Assembly (NCBI GenBank): GCA_018224315.1
Contig: JAGTVF010000041.1
Span: forward strand, 1 to 24,269
Direction of reading: 5' to 3'
DNA from: Desulfobacterales bacterium
Lineage (GTDB): Bacteria; Desulfobacterota; Desulfobacteria; Desulfobacterales; Desulfosalsimonadaceae
Length of the DNA stretch: 24,269 nt
Both the position numbers and the translations under genes were made by a program. The notes below the pieces were generated by a model, which was not told the DNA's origin, searched no databases, and worked only from the letters and a program-made list of their open reading frames with translations. Shown here piece after piece: positions 3,105 through 20,201 of the stretch (position 1 is its first letter; each line of letters opens with the position of its first letter).

Positions 3105-4064
3105 ATGATGACGACATATAATCCACGCGATATTCTGGCGGGCACCGGCATTCTGGCCTTGTTCGGGGCTGTGGCACTGTATTTTCCCATCCTGGGATTT
3201 GCCTGTTTTCTGCTTTTGCCCCTGCCCATGCTGTTGTACCGGCTCAAGCTGGGCCGCAAAAGCGCCGGGATCATGGCAATGCTGGCCGTGGTTGTCATCC
3301 AGGTCTCCGGGCCGGGTCACGTGGTGGACCTGTGGCTGATTTTGTGCATGATCGGCCTGGGATTTGCCATGGCCGAAGCCCTGGTTCAGAATTTAAGCGT
3401 TGAAAAAACCATCGGCTACCCCGGGGTGCTGATATGGACCGCAGGGCTGGCCGCGCTGCTGTTTATCGGCAGTTTTTCCGCATCCGGGCCTCTGGAAATG
3501 ATTGCGGACTATGTCCGAAGAAACCTGGAACTGACGGCTGCGGCATACGAAACAATGGAGATGCCCGAATCCAGCATCCGGGTGCTCACTGAGTCCATGG
3601 ACCGGATTCATTATGTGATTATGGGCATTCTGCCGGCTTTGACAGCCTCGGGGTTGATTTTTGCCGGGTGGGCAAACCTGCTGATCGCCAGGGCTGCACT
3701 CCGTGCCCGGCAATTGCCTGGCCCGGGATTTGGCCGGCTCAATCTGTGGAAAGCCCCGGACGTACTGGTTTGGGCGGTGATTGCATCGGCACTGCTGCTC
3801 TGGGTGGCAAGCGGCCCCCTGGCCTTTATGGGTGCCAATGCATTGATTCTGCTGATGCTCATTTACCTGTTTCAGGGCATTGCCGTGATCTCATGGTATT
3901 TTGAGCAAAAACAGATGCCCCTGTTTCTGCGGGTGCTGATATACATATTAATTGCCATTCAGCAGGCACTGGCCCTGGTGGTGATCGGCCTGGGTTTTTT
4001 CGACACCTGGGCTGATTTTCGAAAAATAAACGCAGCTCCCGGTGATCATCCGGATCCGTCATAA
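3105..4064 (+). CDS. DUF2232 family multi-pass membrane protein
   Basis: 319-residue integral membrane protein with about eight hydrophobic helices, starting with ILAGTGILALFGAVALYF and ending with LIYILIAIQQALALVVIGLGFF. A hydrophilic region near residues 125-165 may face the periplasm. It matches the DUF2232 (YybS-like) proteins that commonly sit between rpsR and rplI in Desulfobacterota; function unknown. The frame is open far upstream into rpsR, but the hydrophobic protein begins at the tandem ATGs at 3105 and 3108. No good ribosome-binding site is visible at either, so the exact start is uncertain. Being inside a ribosomal-protein operon suggests constitutive, growth-linked expression. 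Confidence 0.85.
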   Translation: MMTTYNPRDILAGTGILALFGAVALYFPILGFACFLLLPLPMLLYRLKLGRKSAGIMAMLAVVVIQVSGPGHVVDLWLILCMIGLGFAMAEALVQNLSVEKTIGYPGVLIWTAGLAALLFIGSFSASGPLEMIADYVRRNLELTAAAYETMEMPESSIRVLTESMDRIHYVIMGILPALTASGLIFAGWANLLIARAALRARQLPGPGFGRLNLWKAPDVLVWAVIASALLLWVASGPLAFMGANALILLMLIYLFQGIAVISWYFEQKQMPLFLRVLIYILIAIQQALALVVIGLGFFDTWADFRKINAAPGDHPDPS

Positions 4065-4124
4065 ACAAACGGATCCCGTGAGCTAAAAAATATGCAACTT
4101 ACGTGCACCATCGGAGGACAAGAG

Positions 4125-4571
4125 ATGAAAGTCATATTAAAAGAAACCATCGAATCTCTGGGCATTATTGGCGCAGAGGCGGATGTGAAGGCCGGTTATG
4201 CCCGCAATTATCTGATTCCCCAGGGCAAGGCCGTGCAGGCCACCAAAGAAAACCGCAAAAAAATGGAGCAGGAACGGGCCAAGATTGAGCTTCAGCTGGC
4301 CAAGGAACGAAAACTGGCCGAAGAAATGGCCGCCCGCCTTGAAGGCGTTATTTTGCAGATTCCGGCCAAGGTGGCCGATGAAGACCGACTGTACGGATCG
4401 GTTGCTGTGCGCGACATCGCCGAAGCCCTTGAGCAAAAGGGCATCGAGGTGGAAAAGCGCGCCATTCTCCTGGCCGATCCCATCAAGACCCTGGGCACCT
4501 ACCAGGTCCCGGTACGCGTCTACCGGGATATTGAACCGGAAATCACCGTGGAGGTAGTGCCCGAATCCTGA
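4125..4571 (+). CDS. rplI: 50S ribosomal protein L9
   Basis: 148-residue L9, which binds 23S rRNA near the base of the L1 stalk. The N-terminal rRNA-binding domain is plain: MKVILKE, LGxxGxxxxVKAGYARNYLIP and GKAVQAT. The long charged connecting helix (about 43-75, rich in Lys/Glu/Arg) and the C-terminal domain (DRLYGSVAVRDIAEAL, then LGTYQVPVRV) follow. The start is the ATG at 4125, with GGAGG at 4113-4117. The frame extends 11 codons upstream, but MKVIL is the family's conserved start. Last gene before the intrinsic terminator. Confidence 0.97.
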   Translation: MKVILKETIESLGIIGAEADVKAGYARNYLIPQGKAVQATKENRKKMEQERAKIELQLAKERKLAEEMAARLEGVILQIPAKVADEDRLYGSVAVRDIAEALEQKGIEVEKRAILLADPIKTLGTYQVPVRVYRDIEPEITVEVVPES

Positions 4572-4632
4572 GAATCGGGTCGTTTCACATGTGTTTGAAG
4601 CGGATCTGCCCTGCCTGGGCGGATCCGCCCTG

Positions 4633-4671
4633 AAAAAACAAACCGCGGCGGTTTCCAGCGGTTTGTTTTTT
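4633..4671 (+). terminator. Intrinsic terminator after rplI
   Basis: A perfect 14-pair stem joins 4633-4646 (A6-CAAACCGC) to 4658-4671 (GCGGTTTG-T6) around an 11-base loop. The right arm ends in six Ts. The A-run on the other side would let it work in both directions. It separates the ribosomal protein operon from dnaB, so dnaB needs read-through or its own promoter. Confidence 0.85.
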
Positions 4672-4727
4672 GATTCACACCTGCCGGGGCCGGCTTGATG
4701 TCCCGGCTGTATATCCCGGGCCGTGCC

Positions 4728-6098
4728 ATGAGCAGCAAAGATCCGTCGCTTCAAAAGCTTCCGCCCCAGAGCCTCGAGGCTGAGGAATCCATTATCAGCG
4801 CTGCCTTGCTGGATAACAACATCCTGCTCGACATCCTTGATATTCTCACGCCCGAAGCCTTTTACAAAAGCGCGCACCAGAAAATTTTCTCCGCCATCAC
4901 CGAACTGTTTGCCGAAGACCAGCCCGTGGACCTGGTTACCCTGGCCGAGCACCTGAGGCGGTCCAACGAACTCGAATCCATCGGCGGAGCCGCCTACCTG
5001 GCCAAAATCGTGGATACCGCACCCGTGCCGGCCAATGCCAAGCACTACGCCCGGATCATCCAGGACCGCGCGGTGCTGCGGCATTTGATCCGCACGGCAA
5101 GCGATATCGTGGAAAAATGCTACAGCGAGTCGGGCAGCACAGACGATGTCATTGATTACGCCGAAGGGGCCCTTTTTGATATTGCCGATAAAAAGCAGAA
5201 GCAGAATTTTTATCCCATCAGCAAAATCATTGAATCCAACATTGATGCATTGGAAGCCCGGCAGGGAAACAGATCACTGATCAGCGGGGTGCCCACGGGA
5301 TTTAAAAAGCTCGACGAGATGACATCCGGCTTTCAGGCCTCGGATCTGATCATCATGGCCGCCCGCCCGGGCATGGGAAAGACCGCCCTGGCCCTGAACA
5401 TGGCCCGGTATGCGGCCGTGGAGGCCGACACTCCGGTTGCCATGTTTTCTCTGGAGATGTCCAAAGAACAGCTTTCCATGCGGCTTTTGTGCGCCGAGGC
5501 CCGCATTGACTCTTCCCGGGTGCGCGACGGGTTTTTCAATGATGACGACTGGTACAGCCTGACCAATGCCGCAGGCGTGCTCTCATCTGCGCCCATCTAT
5601 ATCGATGATTCCCCGGATCTGACCTCCCTTGATATCAAGACCAAGACCCGCCGCCTGAAACGGGAAAAGGGCGTGGGCATGATCATCATCGATTACCTGC
5701 AGCTCATGCGGCCGCGCAAAAACTTCGAGCGCCGGGAACTGGAAATTTCGGAAATGTCGAGAACCCTCAAGGGTCTGGCCAAAGAATTAAACATTCCCGT
5801 GCTCGCCCTGTCCCAGCTCAACCGCCGCCTTGAGGATCGCAGCGACAAGCGCCCCCAGCTTTCCGATCTTCGCGAGTCCGGGGCCCTTGAACAAGACGCG
5901 GATCTGGTTATATTTATTTACAGGGATGACGTCTATAACCCGGACGAAAACAATCCCAACAAAAACATTGCCGAAATTCACCTGGCCAAGCAGAGAAACG
6001 GGGCCACAGGCATGTGCCCACTGGTGTTCAAGGGTGAATACACCCGGTTTGAAAACCTGGCCTACGGGCAATACGCACCCGAATTGGAGGGGACATAA
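4728..6098 (+). CDS. dnaB: Replicative DNA helicase DnaB
   Basis: 456-residue hexameric 5'-3' helicase of the replication fork. The N-terminal DnaG-interacting domain starts at LPPQSLEAEESIISAALLD. The RecA-like domain has Walker A GMGKT (215-219, Lys218) and Walker B IIIDYLQLM (Asp322). The segments LSQLNRRLEDR and DLRESGALEQDAD follow, as in the family. The length is normal and I see no intein. In-frame alternatives are TTG 4695 and ATG 4698. None has a clear ribosome-binding site; 4728 gives the usual short leader before LPPQ. The order rplI-dnaB is common in bacteria. Confidence 0.96.
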   Translation: MSSKDPSLQKLPPQSLEAEESIISAALLDNNILLDILDILTPEAFYKSAHQKIFSAITELFAEDQPVDLVTLAEHLRRSNELESIGGAAYLAKIVDTAPVPANAKHYARIIQDRAVLRHLIRTASDIVEKCYSESGSTDDVIDYAEGALFDIADKKQKQNFYPISKIIESNIDALEARQGNRSLISGVPTGFKKLDEMTSGFQASDLIIMAARPGMGKTALALNMARYAAVEADTPVAMFSLEMSKEQLSMRLLCAEARIDSSRVRDGFFNDDDWYSLTNAAGVLSSAPIYIDDSPDLTSLDIKTKTRRLKREKGVGMIIIDYLQLMRPRKNFERRELEISEMSRTLKGLAKELNIPVLALSQLNRRLEDRSDKRPQLSDLRESGALEQDADLVIFIYRDDVYNPDENNPNKNIAEIHLAKQRNGATGMCPLVFKGEYTRFENLAYGQYAPELEGT

Positions 6099-6105
6099 GC
6101 AGGCA

Positions 6106-6150
6106 ATGCAAGCTTTAAATAAAAGGGAGCGGCAGCTGTTAAGCGAATGA
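6106..6150 (+). CDS. Possible 14-codon leader peptide overlapping the hflX start
   Basis: A tiny open frame starts at ATG 6106 and encodes MQALNKRERQLLSE. Its TGA at 6148-6150 overlaps the hflX ATG (6147-6149) in the arrangement ATGA, typical of translational coupling. GGAGGGG at 6086-6092 lies 13 bases before its ATG, longer than ideal. hflX itself has no well-spaced ribosome-binding site. It may simply be a chance frame; only conservation could decide. Confidence 0.25.
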   Translation: MQALNKRERQLLSE

Positions 6151-7856
6151 AAAACATTTCAGGCAATACCGGCGGACTCAAGGCCGGCGCAGTCCGGCGG
6201 ATTGAAAATCTTTACCACCACCGGATTCCGCCGGAATCGGTCATTTCCCCCGAGCTTGCCGGGGAAATGTGCAGCATCAGCGCTGAAACCCGCCGCCAGA
6301 TCGGGCTGCTGGTGGCACGTTCCGGGAAAATCGCCCGGGTGATCGTGGGCGACAACCAGAAAATCCTGCTGCCCGACACCAGCGAGTACAGAACTCCGCC
6401 TGGCCGGCTCAAAGGGCTGCGCTGCATCCACACCCACTTAAACGATGAAACCCTGACCCGCGACGACCTGACCGACCTCACACTTCTGCGCCTGGACATG
6501 ATGGCGGCAATCACGGCAACCCGTGAGGGAAAACCGGAGCGGATGCATATCGCCCATCTTCTTCCGTCTTCTGAGGCCAGCCAGCCCCACCGGATTTTGG
6601 ATCCGCTCGATCCCATGGATCCGCAGGTGGACTGTGCGGGCCTGATCCGGGCCATCGAGGACGAACTGTCCCAGCACCAGGCCACCCGTGAGGTCACGGA
6701 AGGAAAGGAAAGGGCGGTGCTGGTCAGCGTCACCACCGCCTCCCGGGCCCGGGCACAGGCGTCTTTGACAGAGCTGCGCGAACTGGCCCGCTCCAGTGGA
6801 ATCGAGGTGTTAGACACCATTGTCCAGCACCGCAAAAAGATCAATCCCAGATTCCTGATGGGAACCGGAAAGCTTGAGGAACTGACCATCCACGCCATGC
6901 AGACCGGGGCCACCTTAATTGTTTTCGACCAGGAGTTAAATCCGTCCCAGATGCGCTCGATCACCGACCAGATCGAATTCCGGGTCCTGGACCGCACACA
7001 GCTCATCCTCGACATTTTCTCCCAGCGCGCCCAGTCCCGGGAAGGAAAGATCCAGGTGGAACTGGCCCAGCTCAAATACCTGCTGCCGAGGCTGGTGTTT
7101 AAAAACACGGCCATGAGCCGGCTGACCGGCGGCATCGGCGGCCGGGGCCCGGGTGAAACCAAGCTGGAAATCAATCGCCGCCGGGTCCGGGACCGGATCA
7201 CCCGGCTGGAAAAGGCCCTGGGAAACGTCAAAAAACAGCGCAAACAGCAAAAAGCCCGGCGCTCCAAGCGGGGCCTGCCGGTGATCTCGATTATCGGATA
7301 TACCAATGCCGGCAAATCCACCCTGCTCAACACCCTGACCCACAGCCAGGTGCTGGCCGAAAGCCGGCTGTTTGCCACTCTGGATCCGTCGAGCCGGCGG
7401 CTGAAATTTCCCAAAGACACCGAGGTGATCATCACCGACACGGTGGGCTTTATCCAGGATCTGCCAAAGGAGCTGCGCGTGGCCTTCCGGGCCACACTGG
7501 AAGAACTGGAGAACGCGGATCTGCTGCTCCATGTCATTGATGCGGCCAATGCCGACTGTCTACGGCAGATGCAATCCGTGCATGGCATTCTCCAAGACCT
7601 GGAGCTTGACCGCATCCCGGTGCTCAATGTTTTAAACAAGCAGGACCGGGTGGATGCCGGTACCATGGAGGTGCTTGCTGCCAAAACCAACGGCATTGCT
7701 GTCTCCGCCACAAAGGCCCAAACCCTGCACCCGCTTATTGAAAAAATGGAGCAGGTCATTGCCGGAGAGGCAGCCGGGCCGAATTTTTCGTGGCCGTCAG
7801 ATGAGGCCTCCATGGAAATAAATCCCCTGTTGACGAATACCGGCCGGGTGCTTTAA
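6147..7856 (+). CDS. hflX: Ribosome-associated GTPase HflX with N-terminal extension
   Basis: 569-residue GTPase. HflX binds 50S subunits and splits or rescues stalled ribosomes, especially under stress. The usual HflX N-terminal domain begins near residue 188 (VLVSVTTASRARAQASL) and includes NPRFLMGTGKLEEL. GGIGGRGPGETKLEINRRRV leads into the G domain: G1 GYTNAGKST (384-392), G3 DTVGF (431-435), G4 NKQD (497-500). Typical HflX proteins are about 370-430 residues. The extra N-terminal 185 residues (RIENLYHHRIPPE, RCIHTHLNDETLTRDDLTDL) form a domain I associate with Desulfobacterota homologues; its function is unknown to me. It starts 48 bases after dnaB. Confidence 0.95.
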   Translation: MKNISGNTGGLKAGAVRRIENLYHHRIPPESVISPELAGEMCSISAETRRQIGLLVARSGKIARVIVGDNQKILLPDTSEYRTPPGRLKGLRCIHTHLNDETLTRDDLTDLTLLRLDMMAAITATREGKPERMHIAHLLPSSEASQPHRILDPLDPMDPQVDCAGLIRAIEDELSQHQATREVTEGKERAVLVSVTTASRARAQASLTELRELARSSGIEVLDTIVQHRKKINPRFLMGTGKLEELTIHAMQTGATLIVFDQELNPSQMRSITDQIEFRVLDRTQLILDIFSQRAQSREGKIQVELAQLKYLLPRLVFKNTAMSRLTGGIGGRGPGETKLEINRRRVRDRITRLEKALGNVKKQRKQQKARRSKRGLPVISIIGYTNAGKSTLLNTLTHSQVLAESRLFATLDPSSRRLKFPKDTEVIITDTVGFIQDLPKELRVAFRATLEELENADLLLHVIDAANADCLRQMQSVHGILQDLELDRIPVLNVLNKQDRVDAGTMEVLAAKTNGIAVSATKAQTLHPLIEKMEQVIAGEAAGPNFSWPSDEASMEINPLLTNTGRVL

Positions 7857-8864: not shown

Positions 8865-10247
8865 TTAAAGCCGCATCTTGCCGGGATTTAAAATCCCGGC
8901 AGGATCAAATGCGGCCTTGATCCGCTTCATCAGGCCAAGTGCGGCATCTGAAATTTCCTTTTGCATATAAGGCGCCTTGGCCAGACCCACACCGTGCTCC
9001 CCGGAGATGGTCCCGCCCAGGGCCAGGGTGAAATCAAAGATCTCATCCACGGCCTGTCGGGCGGCCAGCAGCTGGGCCGGCTCGTTTTTGTCCAGCATGA
9101 TGTTGAAATGAATGTTTCCGTCACCGGCATGGCCGAAACTGACCATGGTGAGCCCGGTTTTTTCCCCCAGTTCGCGGATTTTCTCCACCATTTCCGGCAG
9201 CCGGCTTCTGGGCACCACGATGTCTTCATTGATCTTGTGGGGCCCATAGGTGTAAAGGGCCGGGGAAATGGCCTTTCGGGCCCGCCACAGCCCGGCGGCG
9301 GCATCCGCGTCCCGGGCCACGCAGACATCCCGTGCTCCGTGCTCGGCCAGCACCTTTTCAATCCCCTGGACCGCTTCAGCGGTTTGTCCGGGGCTGCCGT
9401 CGGCTTCAATGAGCAGCATGGCCTCGCGGTTTTCGGGAACCCCGCCTTCCAGGTAATTTTTCACGCAGGAAATGGCGTTTTTGTCCATGTACTCCAGGGC
9501 TCTGGGCACAATGCCGCTTTGCAGTATCGCGGCAACGGCCCGGGCGGCATCGGCCATTTTCACAAACCAGGCAGACAGGGTTTCAACGGTTTGGGGCTGC
9601 GCCCGCAGGCGCAGGGTCATCTCCGTGATCACCCCAAGAGTTCCTTCTGATCCCACGATCAGGCGGGTCAGGTCATAGCCCACCACGCCCTTGACGGTCT
9701 GCACCCCTGTTTTGATGATCTCGCCGGTGGGCAGCACCACCTCCAGGCCCAGCACGTAATCGCGTGTCACACCGTATTTCACCGCCCGGGGACCGCCGGC
9801 GCATTCCGCCAGATTGCCGCCCAGGGTGGAAAAATCCGCACTTGAAGGATCCGGGGGGTAAAACAGGCCGTGGCCGGCCACGGCCCGCTGAAACTCTCCG
9901 GTGACCACCCCGGGCTGGACAATCCCGATAAAATTGTCGGCATCAATGCGAACAATCCGGTTGAAACCGGTCATGACCAGCACCAGGCCCTGTCTGGCGG
10001 CAATGGCCCCGCCGCTCATGCCCGATCCCGCCCCCCGGGGGGTGACGGCAAAGCCGCGGGCCGTGGCCAGGCTCAGGATTTCAGCCACCTGTCCGGGATT
10101 TTGCGGAAATGCCACGGCCTCGGGCACGTGCTCATTGCGGGTGGCATCATAGGCATAGCTCACCCGGTCTTCTTTTTGCCGGCAATAGTTATCCGGGCCC
10201 AGGATCTGACTGAGCCGGTCATGGACTTTGGGAGAAATGGGTTTAAT
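8865..10247 (-). CDS. FAD-binding oxidase, GlcD/D-lactate dehydrogenase type
   Basis: A 460-residue flavoprotein if it starts at the ATT at 10247. Such enzymes oxidise glycolate, D-lactate or other 2-hydroxy acids. The FAD-binding PCMH domain carries PRGAGSGMSGG and GPRAVKYGVTRDYVLG. The C-terminal domain has SFGHAGDGNIHFN, GTISGEHGVGLAK and the terminal GILNPGK. The first ATG/GTG/TTG in frame is GTG 10163, but the 28 codons above it encode KVHDRLSQILGPDNY, which looks like the family's N-terminus, so GTG would cut it. ATT 10247 overlaps the dnaA TAA (GATTAA) and has GGAG ten bases upstream. No GlcE/GlcF partner is nearby, so the substrate is unknown. Confidence 0.9.
   Translation of the reverse strand: MKPISPKVHDRLSQILGPDNYCRQKEDRVSYAYDATRNEHVPEAVAFPQNPGQVAEILSLATARGFAVTPRGAGSGMSGGAIAARQGLVLVMTGFNRIVRIDADNFIGIVQPGVVTGEFQRAVAGHGLFYPPDPSSADFSTLGGNLAECAGGPRAVKYGVTRDYVLGLEVVLPTGEIIKTGVQTVKGVVGYDLTRLIVGSEGTLGVITEMTLRLRAQPQTVETLSAWFVKMADAARAVAAILQSGIVPRALEYMDKNAISCVKNYLEGGVPENREAMLLIEADGSPGQTAEAVQGIEKVLAEHGARDVCVARDADAAAGLWRARKAISPALYTYGPHKINEDIVVPRSRLPEMVEKIRELGEKTGLTMVSFGHAGDGNIHFNIMLDKNEPAQLLAARQAVDEIFDFTLALGGTISGEHGVGLAKAPYMQKEISDAALGLMKRIKAAFDPAGILNPGKMRL
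8879..8901. repeat. Perfect 11-base inverted repeat at the convergent gene end
   Basis: TGCCGGGATTT (8879-8889), one A, then AAATCCCGGCA (8891-8901) form a perfect palindrome. It lies in the last codons of the glcD-type gene, within the conserved GILNPGK coding stretch, about 20 bases past the stop of the small Cys protein. No T-run follows on either strand, so it is not a standard intrinsic terminator, though an RNA hairpin with a 3-base loop could form on either transcript. Confidence 0.45.
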
Positions 10248-11631
10248 CGCTTCCGGACTCCAGTTTTTTCTCGATGATCTGCACCTGTGTAAACAGCTCG
10301 CCCTTGAGCTTGAGTTCCTTTTCCACCGAGTTGATGGAATGAATTACCGTGGCATGCTTCCGGTTAAACTTTCTGCCAATGGACTGCAAAGGCTGGCTTG
10401 TATGTCTGCGGGCCAGAAAAATGGCCACCTGCCGGGTCCGCACCACGGATTTTTTCCTGGACCTGGAAATCATGTCTTTAAGGGCAACGCCAAACTCCCG
10501 GCTCACGAGCCGGGCAATGGAATCAATGGTAATGGTTTTTTTCCGGGAGACAATATTTTTGACCACCTGCTCGGCCAGTTCAAGATCGATTGGATCGCCC
10601 ATCAGGCAGCTTCGGGAAGCCACGCCGATCAATCCGTTTTCCAGCTGCCGCACGTTGTCCACCAGTTCGCCGGCCATGTATTCAGCCACCTGCCCGGGCA
10701 ATTCAATACCCCGGCAGCGCGCCTTTGCCCGCAGAATCCGGAGCCGGGTTTTGAAATCCGGGGCATCAATTGCCGTCATCATGCTCTGGCCCAGCCGGGA
10801 GATGAGATGATCGCTCATTCTGGGAATCTCTGACGGGCTTGCGCAGCTGGAAAATATGAGTTTTTTGCCGGATTCATAAAGGTGATCCAGCACCAGGGCC
10901 AGTTCGGTCTGCGTGCGGGTGCGGCCCGAAAGCATGTGGATTTCCTCGAGCAGCAGCACGTCACAGCCGTCCCGGTAGCGCTTCTTGAAGGTGTCCAATG
11001 AATTGCCTTTAATGGCGTGGACCATTTCATTGGTAAAATCCTCGGCGCTCATGTAATAGACGCGCTCGCCCGGAGAAACCGACAAAATCTTGTGCCCCAC
11101 GGCCTGGGACAAGTGACTTTTGCCCATACCCGTGCCCGACAGAAGAAACACGGCATTCACATTTGCGCTTTTGCCGGAAGCCAGCTCCATTGTGGCCTGG
11201 TAGGCCAGGTTGCAATTGTGGCCCACCACGAAATGATCAAAGGTATAATCCTTGCGCAGTATCCGGCCGTTCATGGGCTGGGCGGCAATACCGGGCAGGG
11301 CCATCTGCCGATCCCGGTTTTTGCCCCGGCCTGGGCCCGCAGCGGATTTCGGGCCATGATCACCGTTGTGATGCGGGTCCTGATTCTGGTCCGGTCCGTT
11401 TACCTGCAGGGAAAAAGTCAGCGGCCGGCCGTTTTTGCGGCTCAGTTCATGATTGATCAGATCCGTATAATTGGCCACGATTCTTTTCTTGATAAAAAAA
11501 TTGGGGCAGGCCAGGACCATGGTGTCGTCTTGTGCCTCTACGTACTGAATCGGCTCAATCCAGAGCCGATACAGGCTTGGGGAAATCTGGTCCTTGATAG
11601 CGGTTTTAACGTCCTTCCACACGGTCTTCAT
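10243..11631 (-). CDS. dnaA: DnaA-family replication initiator, divergent
   Basis: 462-residue AAA+ initiator with the full DnaA layout: domain I (VWKDVKTAIKDQISPSLYRLWIEPI), a Gly/Asn/His-rich linker (about 78-120), the AAA+ domain and a C-terminal DNA-binding helix-turn-helix. Walker A is GTGMGKSH (166-173) instead of the usual GLGKTH. Walker B ends LLLEE (229-230) where LLIDD is common, and sensor 1 reads SSC instead of TSD. In domain IV the usual DHTTV signature reads KHATV (425-429). Start: ATG 11631, preceded by GGAGAG at good spacing. No dnaN is adjacent; the glcD-type gene overlaps its stop. It is either the sole initiator or a second DnaA paralogue, which the window cannot settle. 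Confidence 0.88.
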   Translation of the reverse strand: MKTVWKDVKTAIKDQISPSLYRLWIEPIQYVEAQDDTMVLACPNFFIKKRIVANYTDLINHELSRKNGRPLTFSLQVNGPDQNQDPHHNGDHGPKSAAGPGRGKNRDRQMALPGIAAQPMNGRILRKDYTFDHFVVGHNCNLAYQATMELASGKSANVNAVFLLSGTGMGKSHLSQAVGHKILSVSPGERVYYMSAEDFTNEMVHAIKGNSLDTFKKRYRDGCDVLLLEEIHMLSGRTRTQTELALVLDHLYESGKKLIFSSCASPSEIPRMSDHLISRLGQSMMTAIDAPDFKTRLRILRAKARCRGIELPGQVAEYMAGELVDNVRQLENGLIGVASRSCLMGDPIDLELAEQVVKNIVSRKKTITIDSIARLVSREFGVALKDMISRSRKKSVVRTRQVAIFLARRHTSQPLQSIGRKFNRKHATVIHSINSVEKELKLKGELFTQVQIIEKKLESGSD

Positions 11632-11705
11632 GAGGCACTCTCCATTTACATACTCACAGGATGAACAAAATATACAGTCACAATCAGCAATGGATATGCT
11701 ATGCT

Positions 11706-11714
11706 TGTGCAAAA
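11706..11714 (-). promoter_or_regulatory. DnaA-box match upstream of dnaA
   Basis: The minus strand reads TTTTGCACA, a full match to the relaxed DnaA-box consensus TTWTNCACA, 75 bases upstream of the dnaA start. DnaA commonly represses its own gene through such boxes. It is the only clear match I found in 11632-12251, and one 9-mer could be chance. Confidence 0.4.
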
Positions 11715-11919
11715 GCCGAAAACATCAGAACCGTATCTTTTGGTAAATCAATACGACTGGCAGGTATTCAAACGGCCTTGAATCGCCGGGAAATATTGAA
11801 ATGACGGGATTTGGCTCCCATCGAATGGCTGTGGTTATAATACAGGGGGCCAATGGGATCAAGTGCGATGAGACTCGGTTTTCCCCATTTTCCTCTAAGG
11901 GCCGGTTGTGTTATGAACA

Positions 11920-11948
11920 ATTCTATATATAGCGGAATCTTCTGCCAA
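11920..11948 (-). promoter_or_regulatory. Sigma-70-like promoter candidate directed toward dnaA
   Basis: On the minus strand, TTGGCA (11948-11943), a 17-base spacer and TAGAAT (11925-11920) each match five of six consensus bases. It would give dnaA a leader of about 280 bases with no convincing gene in it. A promoter closer to dnaA was not evident. Confidence 0.4.
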
Positions 11949-12149
11949 TCAGTGGATTGCCGGGCCATTGCTGAATTCTGAAATGAAAAAATTTTGTCGC
12001 AATTCTGTCACATTTACCCGCTTCTTTTTTTGACAGACCGGAGAACCGGCCCGGACGGGGCATTAAGCGATCTTTAATTTTCGTCAATTTTTGTAAAATT
12101 TCAGGGCTAAACAATATTGCCTTTCAGGATGGAATTTTATAGTTATAAA

Positions 12150-12168
12150 TAATTATTTCAAATAATTA
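12150..12168. repeat. AT-only palindrome upstream of namZ
   Basis: Nine-base arms TAATTATTT and AAATAATTA around a single C, perfect on both sides, about 85 bases before the namZ start. Position and symmetry fit a dimeric regulator site. No known regulator consensus that I recall matches it. Confidence 0.45.
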
Positions 12169-12251
12169 AAATTAACACCCGACGGAAATTCCGGATTTTA
12201 CCGGCTTTTGGACAAAAACCAGCGAATCTGCGCGCAGTAAAGGAAAACAAA

Positions 12252-13427
12252 ATGACGACCGTTATCACGGGCCTCAAACACCTGACCCGGGCGCAGCCTT
12301 CGGGCCTGGCCGAAAAACGCCTGGGCCTGCTTTGCAACCCGGCCTCCGTGGATGAGCGCTTCCGTCACGCCCGCCACGTGATTTCCCGGCTCTTTCCGGG
12401 CCGGCTCAAGGCCCTGTTTTCCCCCCAGCACGGTTTTTTTGCGGAAAAGCAGGATAACATGGTGGAGTCCGCCAATTTTTTCGACAAGGAACTCCAAATC
12501 CCGGTATTTAGCCTCTACGGGGCCACCCGCATTCCCACCCCGGAAATGATGGACGGCATTGACGTTCTGATCGTGGACCTCCAGGACGCCGGCACCCGGG
12601 TCTACACATTTTTCACCACCCTGTCCTATTGCATGGAGGAGGCCGCAAGACAGCAAAAGGCGGTGATGATCCTGGACCGGCCCAATCCCGTCGGCGGGCT
12701 GCAGGTGGAAGGAAACTGCCTTGAGCCCGGTTACGCTTCGTTTGTGGGGCGCTACCCTATCCCCATGCGTCACGGCCTGACCATCGGCGAATACGCCCGG
12801 CTGATTAACGCGGAATTTCACATTGGATGCGATTTGAGCGTGATTTCCATGAAGGGGTGGAATCGGCACATGTATTATCCAGACACTGGACTGGCCTGGA
12901 TACCACCGTCGCCCAACCTGCCCACGCCGGCATCGGCAATGGTTTATCCGGGCCAGGTTTTGTGGGAGGGAACCAATGTGTCCGAGGGCCGCGGCACAAC
13001 CCAGCCCTTTGAACTGTTCGGAGCGCCCTGGATGGATACGCACGCACTGGAAAACGCCCTGGGAGAAGCCCCTTTTTCAGGCGCAGTGCTCAGGCCGGCC
13101 GTATTTGAACCCACCTCGGGAAAATGGGTCGGAAGATCCTGCCATGGGTTTCAGATCCATGTCACTGACCGGGAAAAATATCTGCCCTACCAGACCAGCC
13201 TGGCCCTGGTGGGGGCGGTCCGCAAACTTTTCGGCAATGAATTTGCCTGGAAAATGCCCCCTTATGAATATGAATGGGAAAAACTGCCATTTGACCTGAT
13301 CACCGGAGATACAAAAATCCGCTCGCAACTGGAAGCCGGTGTTGATGCGGCTGAAATGGCAAGGAACTGGCAGGCGCAGACAGAAGCCTACCAGCAGCAG
13401 ATACGGCCGTATCTGCTCTATGAATAG
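12252..13427 (+). CDS. namZ: Exo-beta-N-acetylmuramidase NamZ family (DUF1343, GH171)
   Basis: 391-residue DUF1343 protein. NamZ of Bacillus subtilis removes MurNAc from the non-reducing end of peptidoglycan fragments. Family landmarks: LGLLCNPASVD (24-34), SPQHGFF (57-63), VDLQDAGTRVYTF (108-120), DRPNPVGG (142-149), RHGLTIGEYARLIN (173-186) and EGTNVSEGRGTTQPFELFGAPW in the second half. The SPQHG motif has Gln where I recall Glu (PEHG) in many homologues. No signal peptide is seen, so it may act in the cytoplasm on imported fragments. Start: ATG 12252 after AAAGGAAAAC. It faces dnaA across a long intergenic region. The MurU-AmgK fusion 4 kb downstream could use its product. Confidence 0.88.
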   Translation: MTTVITGLKHLTRAQPSGLAEKRLGLLCNPASVDERFRHARHVISRLFPGRLKALFSPQHGFFAEKQDNMVESANFFDKELQIPVFSLYGATRIPTPEMMDGIDVLIVDLQDAGTRVYTFFTTLSYCMEEAARQQKAVMILDRPNPVGGLQVEGNCLEPGYASFVGRYPIPMRHGLTIGEYARLINAEFHIGCDLSVISMKGWNRHMYYPDTGLAWIPPSPNLPTPASAMVYPGQVLWEGTNVSEGRGTTQPFELFGAPWMDTHALENALGEAPFSGAVLRPAVFEPTSGKWVGRSCHGFQIHVTDREKYLPYQTSLALVGAVRKLFGNEFAWKMPPYEYEWEKLPFDLITGDTKIRSQLEAGVDAAEMARNWQAQTEAYQQQIRPYLLYE

Positions 13428-13468: not shown

Positions 13469-14137
13469 ATGGCAAAAAATGACGTGCCCGGCTGGCGGCG
13501 CATGCGCTTTAAAAAAAACAAGGTCTGGGTGGAAACCGACGACCACAACAAACCCGTCATTGAGAACAACCGGACCCGGATCAAATATCAGCTTGACCAG
13601 CCCCATGAGTACCGGGTCAATCCCGATCATCTGTCGGAACTGGAAAATGCACCGCAGCAGAACAAATCCGGCAAAAAGCGCACAAAACCAAAACCAGCAA
13701 ACCTTGATGAGCCGCAAGAAACCACCGCCCACCCCGAAAATGCCGTTGTCATCTACACCGACGGGGCATCTTCCGGCAATCCGGGTCCGGCGGGAATCGG
13801 TGCGGTGCTGCGCTATAAGGGGAAAAAAAGGGAAATCTCGCAATATATCGGCCATGCCACCAACAATATCGCCGAACTCGAAGCCGTGCGCACCGCACTC
13901 GCCGCGCTCAAGCGCAGGGACCTGCCCGTGCGGGTCCACACTGACAGCAGTTATGTGCACGGACTTTTGGTCAAAAACTGGAAGGCGCGGCAGAATCCGG
14001 AGCTGGTCCGGGCGCTGAGGGAACTGGCAAGCCAGTTTTCAGACCTGAAAATCATCAAGGTCCGCGGGCACATGGGGGTTGCAGACAACGAACTGGCCGA
14101 TCATCTGGCCACCTCCGCCATTGACAAAAAAGCGTAG
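13469..14137 (+). CDS. rnhA: Ribonuclease HI with distinctive N-terminal domain
   Basis: 222 residues; degrades RNA in RNA-DNA hybrids. The catalytic domain occupies about 92-219 with all key residues: Asp98 (YTDGASSGNPGPAG), Glu136 (NIAELEAV), Asp159 (HTDSSYV), His201 and Asp211 (KVRGHMGVADNELAD). Residues 1-60 form an extra module (WRRMRFKKNKVWVETDD, then IKYQLDQPHEYRV) joined by a Lys/Pro-rich linker. It does not look like the known hybrid-binding domain of some RNases H. Start: ATG 13469 with AGGAAA just upstream, 41 bases after namZ, so cotranscription is likely. Confidence 0.93.
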   Translation: MAKNDVPGWRRMRFKKNKVWVETDDHNKPVIENNRTRIKYQLDQPHEYRVNPDHLSELENAPQQNKSGKKRTKPKPANLDEPQETTAHPENAVVIYTDGASSGNPGPAGIGAVLRYKGKKREISQYIGHATNNIAELEAVRTALAALKRRDLPVRVHTDSSYVHGLLVKNWKARQNPELVRALRELASQFSDLKIIKVRGHMGVADNELADHLATSAIDKKA

Positions 14138-14821: not shown

Positions 14822-17479
14822 ATGGCTTATAATCGACATTCGCTGCAGGGAAAAACCGCAGCTGACAAAACCCCGCAGAGTGACATGAATCCCGGGGACA
14901 GCGAAATAGCCCCGTTTTTCTGCTATCTGCCGGGATGCAGGGGGTTGCTGGCGCGGTTGATCAGCATCCTTTTGTTTAACCGGCCGAAAATCGATGCCCA
15001 GCTCCAGCAGACGGTCAAAGAACTCGGCCAATCCGGCATTGTCGTATATGTCAACAAGTACCGCAGCAAATTTGAATATTTTTTTTATCACTGCCGGTAC
15101 CGCAAGGAAGGCCTGCCCTATCCGGTTCTTGGTTTTGATTATGCCACCTATTTCTGGCAGCCTTTGAAACGGGTCTTTAACGGCTTTGTTTTCAACTTCG
15201 GCCATTTGTTGAGGCATTTTTCCTGGCCGGATCCTTACCAGCAGCACTTTTACCGCAACCGTCTTCTGGCCGGGGATGCGGCAATGGTTTCGCTGATTGA
15301 GGAAAAGCAGAGTTACCGGCAGCTGGCCAGATCCGGCACCGACCCCATGGACTACCTCATCGAGATCCAAAAAACCATAGATACGCCCATTTACCTGGTT
15401 CCCCAGCTCATCCTCTATGACCGGGACCCCCAGACCACATGGCTGACGCTCACGGATGTCATTTTCGGCACCCGGGAAAAACCCGGGCGGCTGCGCAGGC
15501 TCTGGATGATGCTCAAACGGCCCGGCAAAATCTGGATTGAAGGCGCTGAAATTATCAATCTCAAAGATTTTCTCCAGACCCGGGAAGCCACCAGTCTCAA
15601 TCAGAAAAGCCAGGCCATTTATCTGCGCCGGTTTCTCATCGACCGGATCAACCGGCACCGGCAATCCATTACCGGCCCGGTTCTCAAGTCCCGAACGGAA
15701 ATCATGCAGGGGGTGCTGACCCATCCGGAAACCCAGCGCATCATTTCCGAATATGCGGCCGAACACAAGGTTCCCATTTACAAGGCCCAGAAGGAGGCGG
15801 CGGATTTTCTCGATGAAATTGCCGCCAATTACAACCTTAAGATTATCAAGATCTTTGATATCTTCCTGCGCTGGATTTTCCGGGCCATGTTTGACGGCAT
15901 GGTGGTGGATCAGGAAGGACTGGACCGAATCCGGCAGGCCTCCAAAACCGGGCCCCTGGTGCTGGTGCCCTGCCACAAAAGCCATCTGGATTATCTGATC
16001 CTTTCTTTTGTATTTTTCCACAACAACCTGCCCTGCCCGCATATCGCCGCAGGCAAGAACCTTTCGTTCTGGCCCATCGGGCCGTTGTTTCGGGGCGGCG
16101 GGGCCTTTTTTCTCAGGCGGACATTTAAGGGCGAGCCCCTGTATCCAAAAATTTTTTCGGCTTATATCAACAAGCTGCTCACAGAAGGCTTTCATATGGA
16201 GTTTTTCATCGAGGGCGGCCGAAGCCGCACCGGCAAACTACTGCCGCCCAAGATCGGCTTTCTGTCCCTGCTTGTGGATGCCTACATGAAAAACAACTGG
16301 GATGATATGCTCTTTGTGCCTATATTTATCGGATATGACCGGGTCCTGGAGGAAAAGGCCTATATCCACGAAATGGAAGGAGGCAAAAAAAGCCCGGAAA
16401 ATCTGATCAATATCATAAAGGCCAGAAAATTTCTCAAAAAGAAATACGGCAAGATTTATATCAACTTTCATGAGCCTTTTTCCTTAAAGCAGCATTTTTC
16501 CCAAAGCAGCACCCCGTTTTTCAAACTGGACCGCGAAACCCGGGGGGAGAAGCTGCACACATTCGGGGAAAAAATCATCAGCGCCATTAACAGCCAGGCC
16601 GTGATTACCCCTCATGCGGTGGTGGCCGCCACTTTGCTCAACTGCTCCCAGAAGCGCATTTATTATCGCCAGCTGCTGGAACATGCCGAAACTTATATGA
16701 AGTACCTGTCTATGCGGGGGGTCAAGCTCACCGACACCCTTTACATTGACAACCAGGGGGCCTTTGACACGGTTTTAGACACCTTTATCTCAAACAAATA
16801 CATTGAACGATCCGCATCCACCAGCCCGGCCGGCACACCGCCGAATCCCATTTTCAAGATCCATGAAAACAAACGGCCCAACCTGGAATATTACAAGAAC
16901 AACGGGGTGATCTTTTTTGCGCCCGCGGCCTTTACCGCGCTTTCCATTCTGGCCCTGGACGCATTCCAGTTCACCGCGGAGGACCTGTATCCCCATTACG
17001 CGTTTCTAAAGGATTTTTTCGGCCTGGAATTTATTTTTGACCCGGAAGAAGACGTTGAAACCGCTGTGCGCAAAAATATCAAGGCGTTTATCGACGATGC
17101 CGCACTCACCCCGCATCCGGCCCTGCCGGATACCTATAATGTGACATCCGCAGGATTTCGCAAGCTCAACTTGTTTTCCGGATTTCTCACCGCCTATTTT
17201 GAGTCTTACTGGGTGGTGCTCAATTTCTACATGCGCTATACCCGCGGGCCGATTTTGGAACGCAGAAATTACATCAAAAAAATTCAGGCCCTGGGCAGCC
17301 GCATGTACCGGCGAAACGAGATTCTGCGCAAGGAAGCCCTGTTTAACATCAATTACAAAAACGCAGTGGCCTTTTTTACCAGCCAGGGCTTAAACAATCC
17401 GGAAAATCAGGAAGACCAGGAAGTGCTGGACTTTTACGCGCAAAAAGTCCAGTTCTACCGGCGCTGCCTTCCCAATTAG
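14822..17479 (+). CDS. plsB: Glycerol-3-phosphate 1-O-acyltransferase PlsB
   Basis: 885 residues, close to the usual 800-900. PlsB puts the first acyl chain on glycerol-3-phosphate, making lysophosphatidic acid at the inner membrane. The acyltransferase core is complete: the HxxxxD box CHKSHLDYL (His385, Asp390), the GPLFRGGGAFFLRR segment, EGGRSRTGK (464-472), and LFVPIFIGYDRVLEEKAY. The C-terminal half has the long PlsB-type tail. An alternative start is ATG 14885 (MNPGDSEIAPF). Neither start has a strong ribosome-binding site; I kept the longer. Five bases separate it from the next gene frame. Confidence 0.93.
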   Translation: MAYNRHSLQGKTAADKTPQSDMNPGDSEIAPFFCYLPGCRGLLARLISILLFNRPKIDAQLQQTVKELGQSGIVVYVNKYRSKFEYFFYHCRYRKEGLPYPVLGFDYATYFWQPLKRVFNGFVFNFGHLLRHFSWPDPYQQHFYRNRLLAGDAAMVSLIEEKQSYRQLARSGTDPMDYLIEIQKTIDTPIYLVPQLILYDRDPQTTWLTLTDVIFGTREKPGRLRRLWMMLKRPGKIWIEGAEIINLKDFLQTREATSLNQKSQAIYLRRFLIDRINRHRQSITGPVLKSRTEIMQGVLTHPETQRIISEYAAEHKVPIYKAQKEAADFLDEIAANYNLKIIKIFDIFLRWIFRAMFDGMVVDQEGLDRIRQASKTGPLVLVPCHKSHLDYLILSFVFFHNNLPCPHIAAGKNLSFWPIGPLFRGGGAFFLRRTFKGEPLYPKIFSAYINKLLTEGFHMEFFIEGGRSRTGKLLPPKIGFLSLLVDAYMKNNWDDMLFVPIFIGYDRVLEEKAYIHEMEGGKKSPENLINIIKARKFLKKKYGKIYINFHEPFSLKQHFSQSSTPFFKLDRETRGEKLHTFGEKIISAINSQAVITPHAVVAATLLNCSQKRIYYRQLLEHAETYMKYLSMRGVKLTDTLYIDNQGAFDTVLDTFISNKYIERSASTSPAGTPPNPIFKIHENKRPNLEYYKNNGVIFFAPAAFTALSILALDAFQFTAEDLYPHYAFLKDFFGLEFIFDPEEDVETAVRKNIKAFIDDAALTPHPALPDTYNVTSAGFRKLNLFSGFLTAYFESYWVVLNFYMRYTRGPILERRNYIKKIQALGSRMYRRNEILRKEALFNINYKNAVAFFTSQGLNNPENQEDQEVLDFYAQKVQFYRRCLPN

Positions 17480-17496
17480 AACCTGTGATTTTTCAA

Positions 17497-19221
17497 ATGC
17501 CGGATAACGCCTTTAATGCACTCGTGCTTGCCGCAGGGCTGGGTACGCGTCTGCGGCCCCACAGCCGAAATGTTCCCAAACCCCTGTTCGCCGTGGCCGG
17601 CCGGCCGGTTATCGATATCATCATCTCCAGGCTGATCGATGCCGGGGTCAGCACTATTGCCGTCAATGTTTTTCATCTTCCTGATCAGATCACTGAATAT
17701 ATCGCCTCCTGCAATTACCCGGTGCCGGTGGTCTGCCGGCAGGAGCCGCACCTGCTGGGAACGGGCGGTGCCATTGGCAATTTCTCAGACGTGCTGGGCA
17801 ACCGGCCATTTGTAATGATCAACAGCGACATCTTAACCGATATTGCCATTGAAAAGGTGGTCCGCCAGCATAACACCAGGCGCCCGGCAGCCACACTGGT
17901 GATGCACGACCACCCGGATTTCAACAAGGTGTCTGTGGATCTGCAGGGCCGCATCACCGCCTTTGCCCCCCCGGCCGGCCAAAATCAAAGTCTTATGGCA
18001 TTTACCGGCCTGCAGGTGATCGATCCGGTGATTTATGAATATATTGCACCCAAACAGGCGGTCAGCAGTATTGACCTGTTTTCGGCCATGATCGCAGACG
18101 GACGGAGAATCGAGGCATACCCGGCATCCGGCCATTACTGGATCGACCTGGGCACGCCGCGATCCTTCCGGCAGGCGGTCATCGACACCATGGCCCCGGA
18201 AATCTTTGAACGGCTCACAGGACAAAAACCCCGCGCAGATGATCTTTGCTGCCGGGCCCTGGCCGGCGACGGCTCGGACCGGCAGTGGCTGCGCCTCGCG
18301 TTTAACAACCAAAACCTGATCGTGGCAGACCACGGAATCAACACGGAAAACTCCGTCACGGAGTTTGATGCCTTTGTGGCCATTGGCGGCCATCTTTTTG
18401 ACAAGGGCGTTTGTGTGCCCGAGATCCACGCCCATGACCGGTTTTCCGGACTGGTGTTTGTGGCCGATCTGGGAGACACCCTGCTGCAGCAAGCCGTTGA
18501 AAACGCACCCGGCCCGGAACTTGTTGAAAAATATTACAAAGAGGTCATTGACCGGTTAATGGATATGCACAGCCGGGGATCTGAGGGGTTTGACCCGGCC
18601 TGGGCGTATCAGGGCGCAATCTATGACCGGCAGATGATTTTGGAAAAAGAGGGGCGCTATTTTGTGGCGGCATTTCTACAAAATTATCTGGAAATGGTCG
18701 AAATTGAAACAAATGCCCTTGAATCCGAATTCTGCACCATGGCCGATATCATTTCCGAATCCTGTTGCTACGGGTTCATGCACCGGGATTTTCAGTCCCG
18801 AAACATCATGGTCACCCCAAAAGGCTTTTTTTTCATTGATTTTCAGGCCGGACGCATGGGGCCTTTGGAATATGACCTGGCATCGCTTATAACAGATCCC
18901 TATGTGGCCCTTGCCCCGGAGCTCCAGAATCGCCTTGTGGATTATGCAATGCATCAGCTGGGCATCAGAGCCGGCCGCGGGAAAAAAATTTTTCAAAAAG
19001 GATACCGCTGCTGCGCTATATCAAGAAATCTCCAGGCCCTGGGCGCCTATGGCCGGCTGGTCCGGGAAAAGGGCAAAACCGGTTTTGCCCGCTACATGCC
19101 CCCGGCCCTGAACAACCTGGAAAGACTGACAACCGGGACCGCAGACCCGCGCCTGCCTGTTCTGGCAAAAACCGTGGGCCATGCCCGCCGGCTTCTGGAC
19201 CGGCGGCGGCATGAAAAATGA
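17497..19221 (+). CDS. Fused MurNAc-1-phosphate uridylyltransferase and MurNAc/GlcNAc kinase (MurU-AmgK-like)
   Basis: 574-residue two-domain protein. Residues 1-240 are a nucleotidyltransferase close to MurU: LVLAAGLGTRLRP (9-21), the metal-site NSD (109-111), GTGGAIGN, and HYWIDLGTP. Residues 250-574 are an aminoglycoside-phosphotransferase-fold kinase resembling AmgK: GDGSDRQWLRL (257-267), FVADLGD, HRDFQSRN (429-436, catalytic Asp431) and IDFQAGRMGPLEYDLASL (metal Asp448). In Pseudomonas, AmgK phosphorylates MurNAc at C1 and MurU makes UDP-MurNAc, as separate enzymes. GTG 17485 is an alternative start four codons earlier; neither has a clear ribosome-binding site. Substrate is inferred from domain pairing; other sugar-1-phosphates are possible. 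Confidence 0.85.
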   Translation: MPDNAFNALVLAAGLGTRLRPHSRNVPKPLFAVAGRPVIDIIISRLIDAGVSTIAVNVFHLPDQITEYIASCNYPVPVVCRQEPHLLGTGGAIGNFSDVLGNRPFVMINSDILTDIAIEKVVRQHNTRRPAATLVMHDHPDFNKVSVDLQGRITAFAPPAGQNQSLMAFTGLQVIDPVIYEYIAPKQAVSSIDLFSAMIADGRRIEAYPASGHYWIDLGTPRSFRQAVIDTMAPEIFERLTGQKPRADDLCCRALAGDGSDRQWLRLAFNNQNLIVADHGINTENSVTEFDAFVAIGGHLFDKGVCVPEIHAHDRFSGLVFVADLGDTLLQQAVENAPGPELVEKYYKEVIDRLMDMHSRGSEGFDPAWAYQGAIYDRQMILEKEGRYFVAAFLQNYLEMVEIETNALESEFCTMADIISESCCYGFMHRDFQSRNIMVTPKGFFFIDFQAGRMGPLEYDLASLITDPYVALAPELQNRLVDYAMHQLGIRAGRGKKIFQKGYRCCAISRNLQALGAYGRLVREKGKTGFARYMPPALNNLERLTTGTADPRLPVLAKTVGHARRLLDRRRHEK

Positions 19222-19370: not shown

Positions 19371-20201
19371 ATGCAGCCCATTTCCCTGATGATAAACGGC
19401 CTGCCCGGAAACGTGGCCGCCATGCTTGCGGCCAGGGCCGCCAAAGACAGCCGCTTTGACCTCATTGAGGCCTCTTTGACCGGCGCTGAAATCACACAAA
19501 CAACGCATGCCGTCAACGGCAAAAGCATCGCTTTGATCCCGCCCAAAGACCGCCAGGGGGCCATTGCCGAAATCAGACAAGCCCACAGGGACTTTATTGC
19601 CATTGATTTCACCCATCCCTCTGCGGTCAATGACAATGCCCGGTTTTACTGTGAAAACCAGATCCCCTTTGTCATGGGCACCACCGGCGGCGACCGCCAG
19701 AAACTGGCGACCACGGTGGAGAACTCGGATATCTCCGCGGTGATCGCCCCGAACATGGCCAAGCAAATCGTGGGTTTCCAGGCCATGATGGCCTATGCAG
19801 CCGAAAACTTTCCCAACCTGTTTGCCGGATATGAACTGACCATCGAAGAAAGCCACCAGCAGACCAAGGCTGACACCTCGGGCACGGCCAGGGCCATGGT
19901 GGATTATTTCAACAAGCTGGGCGCAGCCTTTTCCCAAAGCGATATCATCCAAATCCGCGATCCCCAAAAACAAAAAGACCGGCTGGGCGTGCCCGAACAA
20001 TACCTGTCCGGCCACGGATGGCACACCTACACCCTGATTTCGCCGGACAAGACCGTGACTTTCCGGTTTACCCACAATGTCAACGGCCGGGACATCTATG
20101 CCCAGGGGACCTTTGACGCGGTTTTGTTTCTGGCCGGAAAAATCGACCAGGGGCAAAAGGGCCGGGTCTTTTCCATGATTGACGTGCTAAAGCAGGGCTA
20201 A
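19371..20201 (+). CDS. dapB: 4-hydroxy-tetrahydrodipicolinate reductase, plant-type
   Basis: 276-residue DapB, which reduces 4-hydroxy-tetrahydrodipicolinate with NAD(P)H on the lysine/meso-diaminopimelate pathway. The N-terminal MINGLPGNV replaces the usual GAxGRMG loop. GTTGG (103-107) and the catalytic segment ESHQQTKADTSGTA (His162, Lys166, SGT 170-172) follow. The second His of the E. coli HH pair is Gln and one Pro is missing, as in the plant-type subfamily. Start: ATG 19371 with GAAAGGA upstream at good spacing. It has its own promoter candidate and leader hairpin, and the solute-binding gene follows after 9 bases. Its product feeds the peptidoglycan cross-linking residue. Confidence 0.93.
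   Translation: MQPISLMINGLPGNVAAMLAARAAKDSRFDLIEASLTGAEITQTTHAVNGKSIALIPPKDRQGAIAEIRQAHRDFIAIDFTHPSAVNDNARFYCENQIPFVMGTTGGDRQKLATTVENSDISAVIAPNMAKQIVGFQAMMAYAAENFPNLFAGYELTIEESHQQTKADTSGTARAMVDYFNKLGAAFSQSDIIQIRDPQKQKDRLGVPEQYLSGHGWHTYTLISPDKTVTFRFTHNVNGRDIYAQGTFDAVLFLAGKIDQGQKGRVFSMIDVLKQG

Follow-up and report, generated by a model that had tools for sequence, protein, structure and literature searches.

Muramic acid is recycled by different routes in different bacteria. Escherichia coli-type recycling employs the etherase MurQ, and in Pseudomonas-type recycling the anhydro-N-acetylmuramic acid kinase AnmK feeds the AmgK/MurU route. In Bacillus subtilis and Tannerella forsythia an exported NamZ exo-beta-N-acetylmuramidase (secreted in B. 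subtilis) frees N-acetylmuramic acid (MurNAc), which is then converted to MurNAc-6-phosphate via the phosphotransferase system or MurK. Here we analyzed a 24,269-nucleotide stretch of DNA from a Desulfobacterales bacterium (assembly GCA_018224315.1, contig JAGTVF010000041.1), referred to as the window, which carries a gene joining a MurU-like uridylyltransferase to an AmgK-like kinase. Both enzyme types are known, their union in a single polypeptide is unusual, and the context for MurNAc is strong; the protein would be bifunctional. We consider it likely that this is a MurNAc salvage enzyme, acting as both kinase and uridylyltransferase, supplied by NamZ and operating without MurQ or AnmK.

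An earlier note on this DNA had proposed that MurU and AmgK are united in one polypeptide with the signature residues of both intact, and both proposals were confirmed. Within the open frame of 574 amino acids, Pfam placed NTP_transferase at residues 8-228 (E 2.9e-25) and APH at 253-474 (E 2.4e-13), both above cut-off. The first half has the minimal sugar nucleotidyltransferase fold of MurU, lacking a C-terminal domain of its own, and retains GxGxR (14-18), K28, N57, N109/D111 and W215/D217; the second is an APH-type kinase with the HxDxxxxN and DFQ motifs of AmgK, in which HRDxxxxN (429-436) and D448 are intact. A homologue search scored 8000 candidates, 2780 of which matched at E 1e-3, and the best 120, query included, were listed. 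All 120 hold both domains (94-100% of the query covered, 559-630 amino acids, 45-100% identity), and ten key residues (R18, K28, N57, D111, D217, H429, R430, D431, N436 and D448) are invariant among them. Where named, they come from Desulfosalsimonas, Desulfococcus, Desulfobacteraceae, Desulfobacterales or Thermodesulfobacteriota; an 86% match bearing the name Desulfosalsimonas suggests a relative of that genus as the source of the window. The ATG at 17497 lies 17 bases past the stop of the preceding PlsB-like gene, and a GTG at 17485 is a second possible start; we favored the ATG because the consensus N-terminus of 18 relatives is MKALILAAG. A promoter scan was at chance level and returned 28 terminator-like sites against 16.6 expected, and it was not used.

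Next to these homologues we examined 76 genomes of the order; the genome from which the window comes is 91% complete. Both halves were found at one place in 70 of the 76, as a single stop-free match in 61, a single match with an internal stop in one and in pieces in eight (one of them with a stop). One further genome (G303) carries the halves on two contigs, and the fusion was not seen in the remaining five, two of which gave no match and three nucleotidyltransferase-type matches only. The AmgK model NF045698 matched in 71 of the 76 genomes, 70 times in the fusion and once in the kinase half that stands alone in G303, and reached its cut-off in none. A single genome of the order had an extra match, a second, free-standing AmgK-like kinase besides the fusion (G247:C24:12481-13446, 227 bits). 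The presence of both domains in all listed homologues and in 70 order genomes, together with the invariant key residues, led us to reject an assembly or frame artefact. The two-enzyme gene is a genuine fusion, and not a product of chance.

The strongest evidence for MurNAc as the substrate is the linkage to NamZ. This gene occurs in 70 of the 76 order genomes and in 67 of the 70 with the fusion, on the same contig in 42 and on different contigs in 25. In 41 of the 42 same-contig genomes NamZ lies 3.6-11.6 kb upstream of the fusion on the same strand, and in the remaining one it is 28.9 kb away. The association extends beyond the order, where in three genomes a GH3 gene, NamZ, the uridylyltransferase and the kinase are contiguous, with NamZ directly before the separate pair. 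At another locus (L081) a single run comprises NamZ, a Mur ligase, a GH3 gene plus the kinase, and at a further one (L079) an uninterrupted run leads from NamZ through a GHMP (galactokinase-like) kinase and a Mur ligase (3319-6460) to the separate pair and an LD-carboxypeptidase. Outside the order, strong matches co-occurred with NamZ (87/10 vs 41/100, p 8e-22), also when counted by family (35/3 vs 10/32, p 2e-10); these p-values are indicative only, since the genomes are related and the E-value mixes both halves. A match was called strong at a best E-value exponent of -35 or lower, a threshold of our choosing, and -38 and -44 gave the same picture. In a crude signal-peptide check with mechanically chosen start codons, the window NamZ and 30 linked relatives showed no strongly hydrophobic N-terminal stretch: the highest Kyte-Doolittle mean over any 12 residues among the first 40 was 0.38-1.56 (0.66 for the window). 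All 31 thus appear to be cytoplasmic enzymes.

The best NCBIfam model for the first half is MurU (116 bits), followed by an Rv mannose-1-phosphate guanylyltransferase model (105 bits), and AmgK is the best for the second (79.2 bits; 76.9 for the other AmgK model). Among solved structures, the sequences nearest to the protein are those of 3csv and of MurU from two Pseudomonas species (P. putida 4y7t and P. aeruginosa 8hhd). N57 aligns with Asn52 of P. putida MurU, which PMC6981941 reports to hold UTP, but an equivalent is also present in UGP 8x7s and the residue is therefore not exclusive to MurU. The Glu in the E-x-E-P motif does not discriminate base specificity either, as E83 is present in all four references compared. 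Two observations weigh against the assignment. All scores fall far under the model cut-offs, with 116 and 77.6 bits for MurU (NF045761, cut-off 250; NF045697, cut-off 370) and 79.2 and 76.9 bits for AmgK (NF045759, cut-off 550; NF045698, cut-off 500); four separate-gene relatives that we scanned likewise fall below the MurU cut-offs. Moreover, the first half matches MurU, mannose-1-phosphate guanylyltransferases and a UDP-glucose enzyme about equally well, a tie. The earlier note had raised the possibility that the closest characterized homologues act on another sugar such as heptose or mannose; MurU and AmgK being the best models speaks against it, although the tie keeps part of that concern standing for the first half.

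No genome among the 76 reached the cut-off for MurQ or for AnmK, with weak partial matches in 52 and 4, respectively; of 14 control genomes, 5 were above cut-off with each model. The check on murQ that the earlier note suggested thus came out in favor of its reading. GH3 was found in 69 of the 76 genomes and MurA was above cut-off in 70, both including the genome of the window. Salvage in place of MurA was consequently rejected, and of the bypass of MurA suggested at the outset a possible parallel supply of UDP-MurNAc stands, but not a replacement. Taken together, the NamZ linkage, the MurU and AmgK best models and the absence of MurQ matches above cut-off support the MurNAc-salvage assignment, which we regard as likely on this comparative evidence.

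We weighed this assignment against other readings of the same gene. The fusion could carry out the same reactions on N-acetylglucosamine (GlcNAc), or on both sugars, with phosphorylation at C1 followed by formation of UDP-GlcNAc. Both sugars appear in the names of the AmgK models, and NamZ and GH3 enzymes would also release GlcNAc. However, the first domain is nearer to MurU than to GlmU (38 bits) or an archaeal GlmU-like model (79 bits) and shares N57 and F169 with MurU, the linked glycosidase is of the MurNAc-releasing type, and MurQ, the alternative means of disposing of MurNAc, was not found above cut-off in any of the 76 genomes. We consider this reading improbable. Slightly less credible still is a sugar-nucleotide synthase for another sugar, such as mannose or heptose, serving lipopolysaccharide, capsule or glycan synthesis. 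The tie of the mannose-1-phosphate guanylyltransferases with MurU would fit it, but none of the 15 genes scanned in the window belongs to glycan synthesis, cell-wall genes adjoin the fusion or its separate relatives (most other frames there were not annotated), the kinase is best matched by AmgK, and the HddC model gave just 70 bits.

A choline kinase joined to a phosphocholine cytidylyltransferase, as in LicC-LicA type fusions, would have the same superfamilies (NTP_transferase and APH) in the same domain order. Such fusions are known from Treponema, a point for which our literature search gave no confirmation. Against the structures, LicC (1jyk) scored 36 bits over residues 6-69 only, compared with 77 bits for MurU over the whole domain, and a Pfam scan at E 0.001 listed no choline-kinase family; with the NamZ linkage added, this reading has very little probability. 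The Pfam, NCBIfam and structure-sequence comparisons disfavored the LicCA, heptose and mannose readings alike. It is equally hard to credit that the fusion is genuine but has one half that is inactive or merely regulatory, given that no variation in these residues was seen in either half among the 120 listed homologues, as far as the key catalytic positions are concerned.

Returning to MurNAc salvage, we infer the substrates, the direction of the reactions and the location of NamZ as follows. NamZ would act inside the cell on imported fragments of the wall whose non-reducing end is MurNAc. Encoded a few kb upstream and showing no evident signal peptide, it would supply free MurNAc in the cytoplasm, accompanied by a GH3 (NagZ-like) enzyme encoded elsewhere in the genome. 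The C-terminal kinase would then convert MurNAc and ATP to MurNAc-alpha-1-phosphate, and the N-terminal domain would use this product and UTP to form UDP-MurNAc, which would join peptidoglycan synthesis downstream of the MurA and MurB steps. The fusion makes it plausible that MurNAc-1-phosphate would be channelled between the two sites. Muramic acid recycling in the order would hence run from NamZ to the fusion, with neither the etherase MurQ nor the anhydroMurNAc kinase AnmK.

To the distribution within the order we can add that of the separate genes. Among the 247 genomes listed in a search of the phylum, matches to both halves occurred in all nine that belong to the order; two others outside it (G157 and G206) matched both halves with an internal stop, and the remainder matched one half. 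The loci that we opened outside the order had separate genes. A set of 100 loci (80 kept from a scan of named genome contigs and 20 earlier ones) comprised 51 fused, 31 with both genes separate and 18 with the kinase only. In 26 of the 31 separate loci the uridylyltransferase gene ends at most 300 bases before the kinase gene or overlaps it, and in the other five it lies 0.95-2.3 kb upstream. The chain order, uridylyltransferase then kinase, was noted earlier and holds; since the separate pairs have the same order, it needs no special reason. In three loci (L076, L077 and L171) the kinase start codon immediately follows the uridylyltransferase stop in the same frame, and fusion from such an arrangement is a small step. 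Open frames of 646-698 amino acids in other orders were considered as longer fusions and rejected, as the six opened (L076, L077 and L091-L094) are separate genes with a stop between them. A special in-frame stop between separate genes was also discarded: 8 of 25 close pairs (-80 to +300 bases) are in frame, roughly as by chance, and all three stop codons occur.

Besides the 70 order genomes, the search for further members of the fusion found it in two metagenome-assembled genomes labelled as other phyla, Gemmatimonas sp. (L168) and Latescibacterota (L169), where NamZ is directly upstream. The two loci are nearly alike, so at least one of the labels is doubtful. In a tree of the kinase, the 17 fused sequences of the order, window included, formed one group (support 99) together with L144, for which no fused gene is seen in the record, and L168 and L169 formed another group apart from it (support 100). 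A single clade for all fused sequences was not rejected by the approximately unbiased test (p-AU 0.51 for the kinase, in a set excluding L144 and 3csv, and 0.16 for the uridylyltransferase). The second fusion may be separate in origin. A cultured carrier of the fusion is Desulfobotulus alkaliphilus ASO4-4.

The features of the locus are collected in Table 1. An RNase H gene with approximately 90 extra N-terminal residues (13469-14137) adjoins NamZ in 13 of 20 neighborhoods. In the window DapB, the usual bacterial DapB model scored below its own cut-off and the plant-type model above. On the other side of NamZ lies dnaA (10243-12251, minus strand), and genes for ribosomal protein L9 and DnaB are located at 4092-6098; the window is possibly near the replication origin.

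Table 1. Features of the fusion locus, in window positions. Counts of loci refer to 20 neighborhoods picked for NamZ-fusion linkage, in which open frames besides PlsB, RNase H and DapB were not annotated.
Feature	Position	Strand	Evidence
NamZ exo-beta-N-acetylmuramidase, no evident signal peptide	12252..13427	+	Pfam NamZ_N E 9.5e-83, NamZ_C E 3.6e-52
PlsB-like glycerol-3-phosphate acyltransferase, 885 aa, directly upstream of the fusion	14822..17479	+	adjoins the fusion in 20/20 loci
Fused gene, 574 aa, MurU-like uridylyltransferase and AmgK-like kinase	17497..19221	+	one uninterrupted frame, then stop
Uridylyltransferase domain, residues 6-236, minimal MurU-type	17512..18204	+	
N57 codon (Asn52 in the alignment with P. 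putida MurU)	17665..17667	+	alignments; N57 in 120/120 homologues
Kinase domain, residues ~250-574, APH fold, AmgK-like	18244..19218	+	
HRDFQSRN catalytic loop of the kinase, residues 429-436	18781..18804	+	
Plant-type DapB (diaminopimelate/lysine synthesis), downstream of the fusion	19371..20201	+	TIGR02130 340.7 bits, above cut-off; 16/20 loci

In the open-licence literature that we searched we found no account of an AmgK-MurU fusion, nor of AmgK/MurU recycling in this group of anaerobes, and one may exist elsewhere. If our assignment is true, the gene would offer a single-gene tool from MurNAc to UDP-MurNAc, of use in labelling cell walls and in making UDP-MurNAc enzymatically; labelling of E. 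coli with 2-alkyne-MurNAc is an existing test for AmgK/MurU (PMC13041923). A recycling route dependent on NamZ would also be added for a large anaerobic group, a sulfate-reducer-type order. The chances seem evenly balanced that this amounts to a third way of recycling muramic acid, in which a cytoplasmic NamZ and one bifunctional enzyme, with a possible hand-over of MurNAc-1-phosphate, serve 70 of 76 order genomes without AnmK or MurQ, and to which a second, possibly separate, fusion in another phylum would belong.

Compared with the described systems, the uridylyltransferase domain is ~27% identical to MurU (4y7t, 8hhd), has LGTGGA where MurU has LETGGG and is fused to a kinase, and the kinase, ~22% identical to the AmgK structure relative 3csv, is likewise under its cut-off and fused. 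LicCA, HldE and FKP also combine a kinase with a nucleotidyltransferase in a single chain for the activation of a small molecule; their substrates differ, and the kinases of HldE and FKP belong to other families. The Pseudomonas-type and E. coli-type routes depend on AnmK and MurQ, respectively, whereas the order genomes hold neither above cut-off. The release of MurNAc by NamZ that we propose is the same as in B. subtilis and T. forsythia, but here NamZ shows no evident signal peptide, and its gene is linked to a fusion of the AmgK/MurU type.
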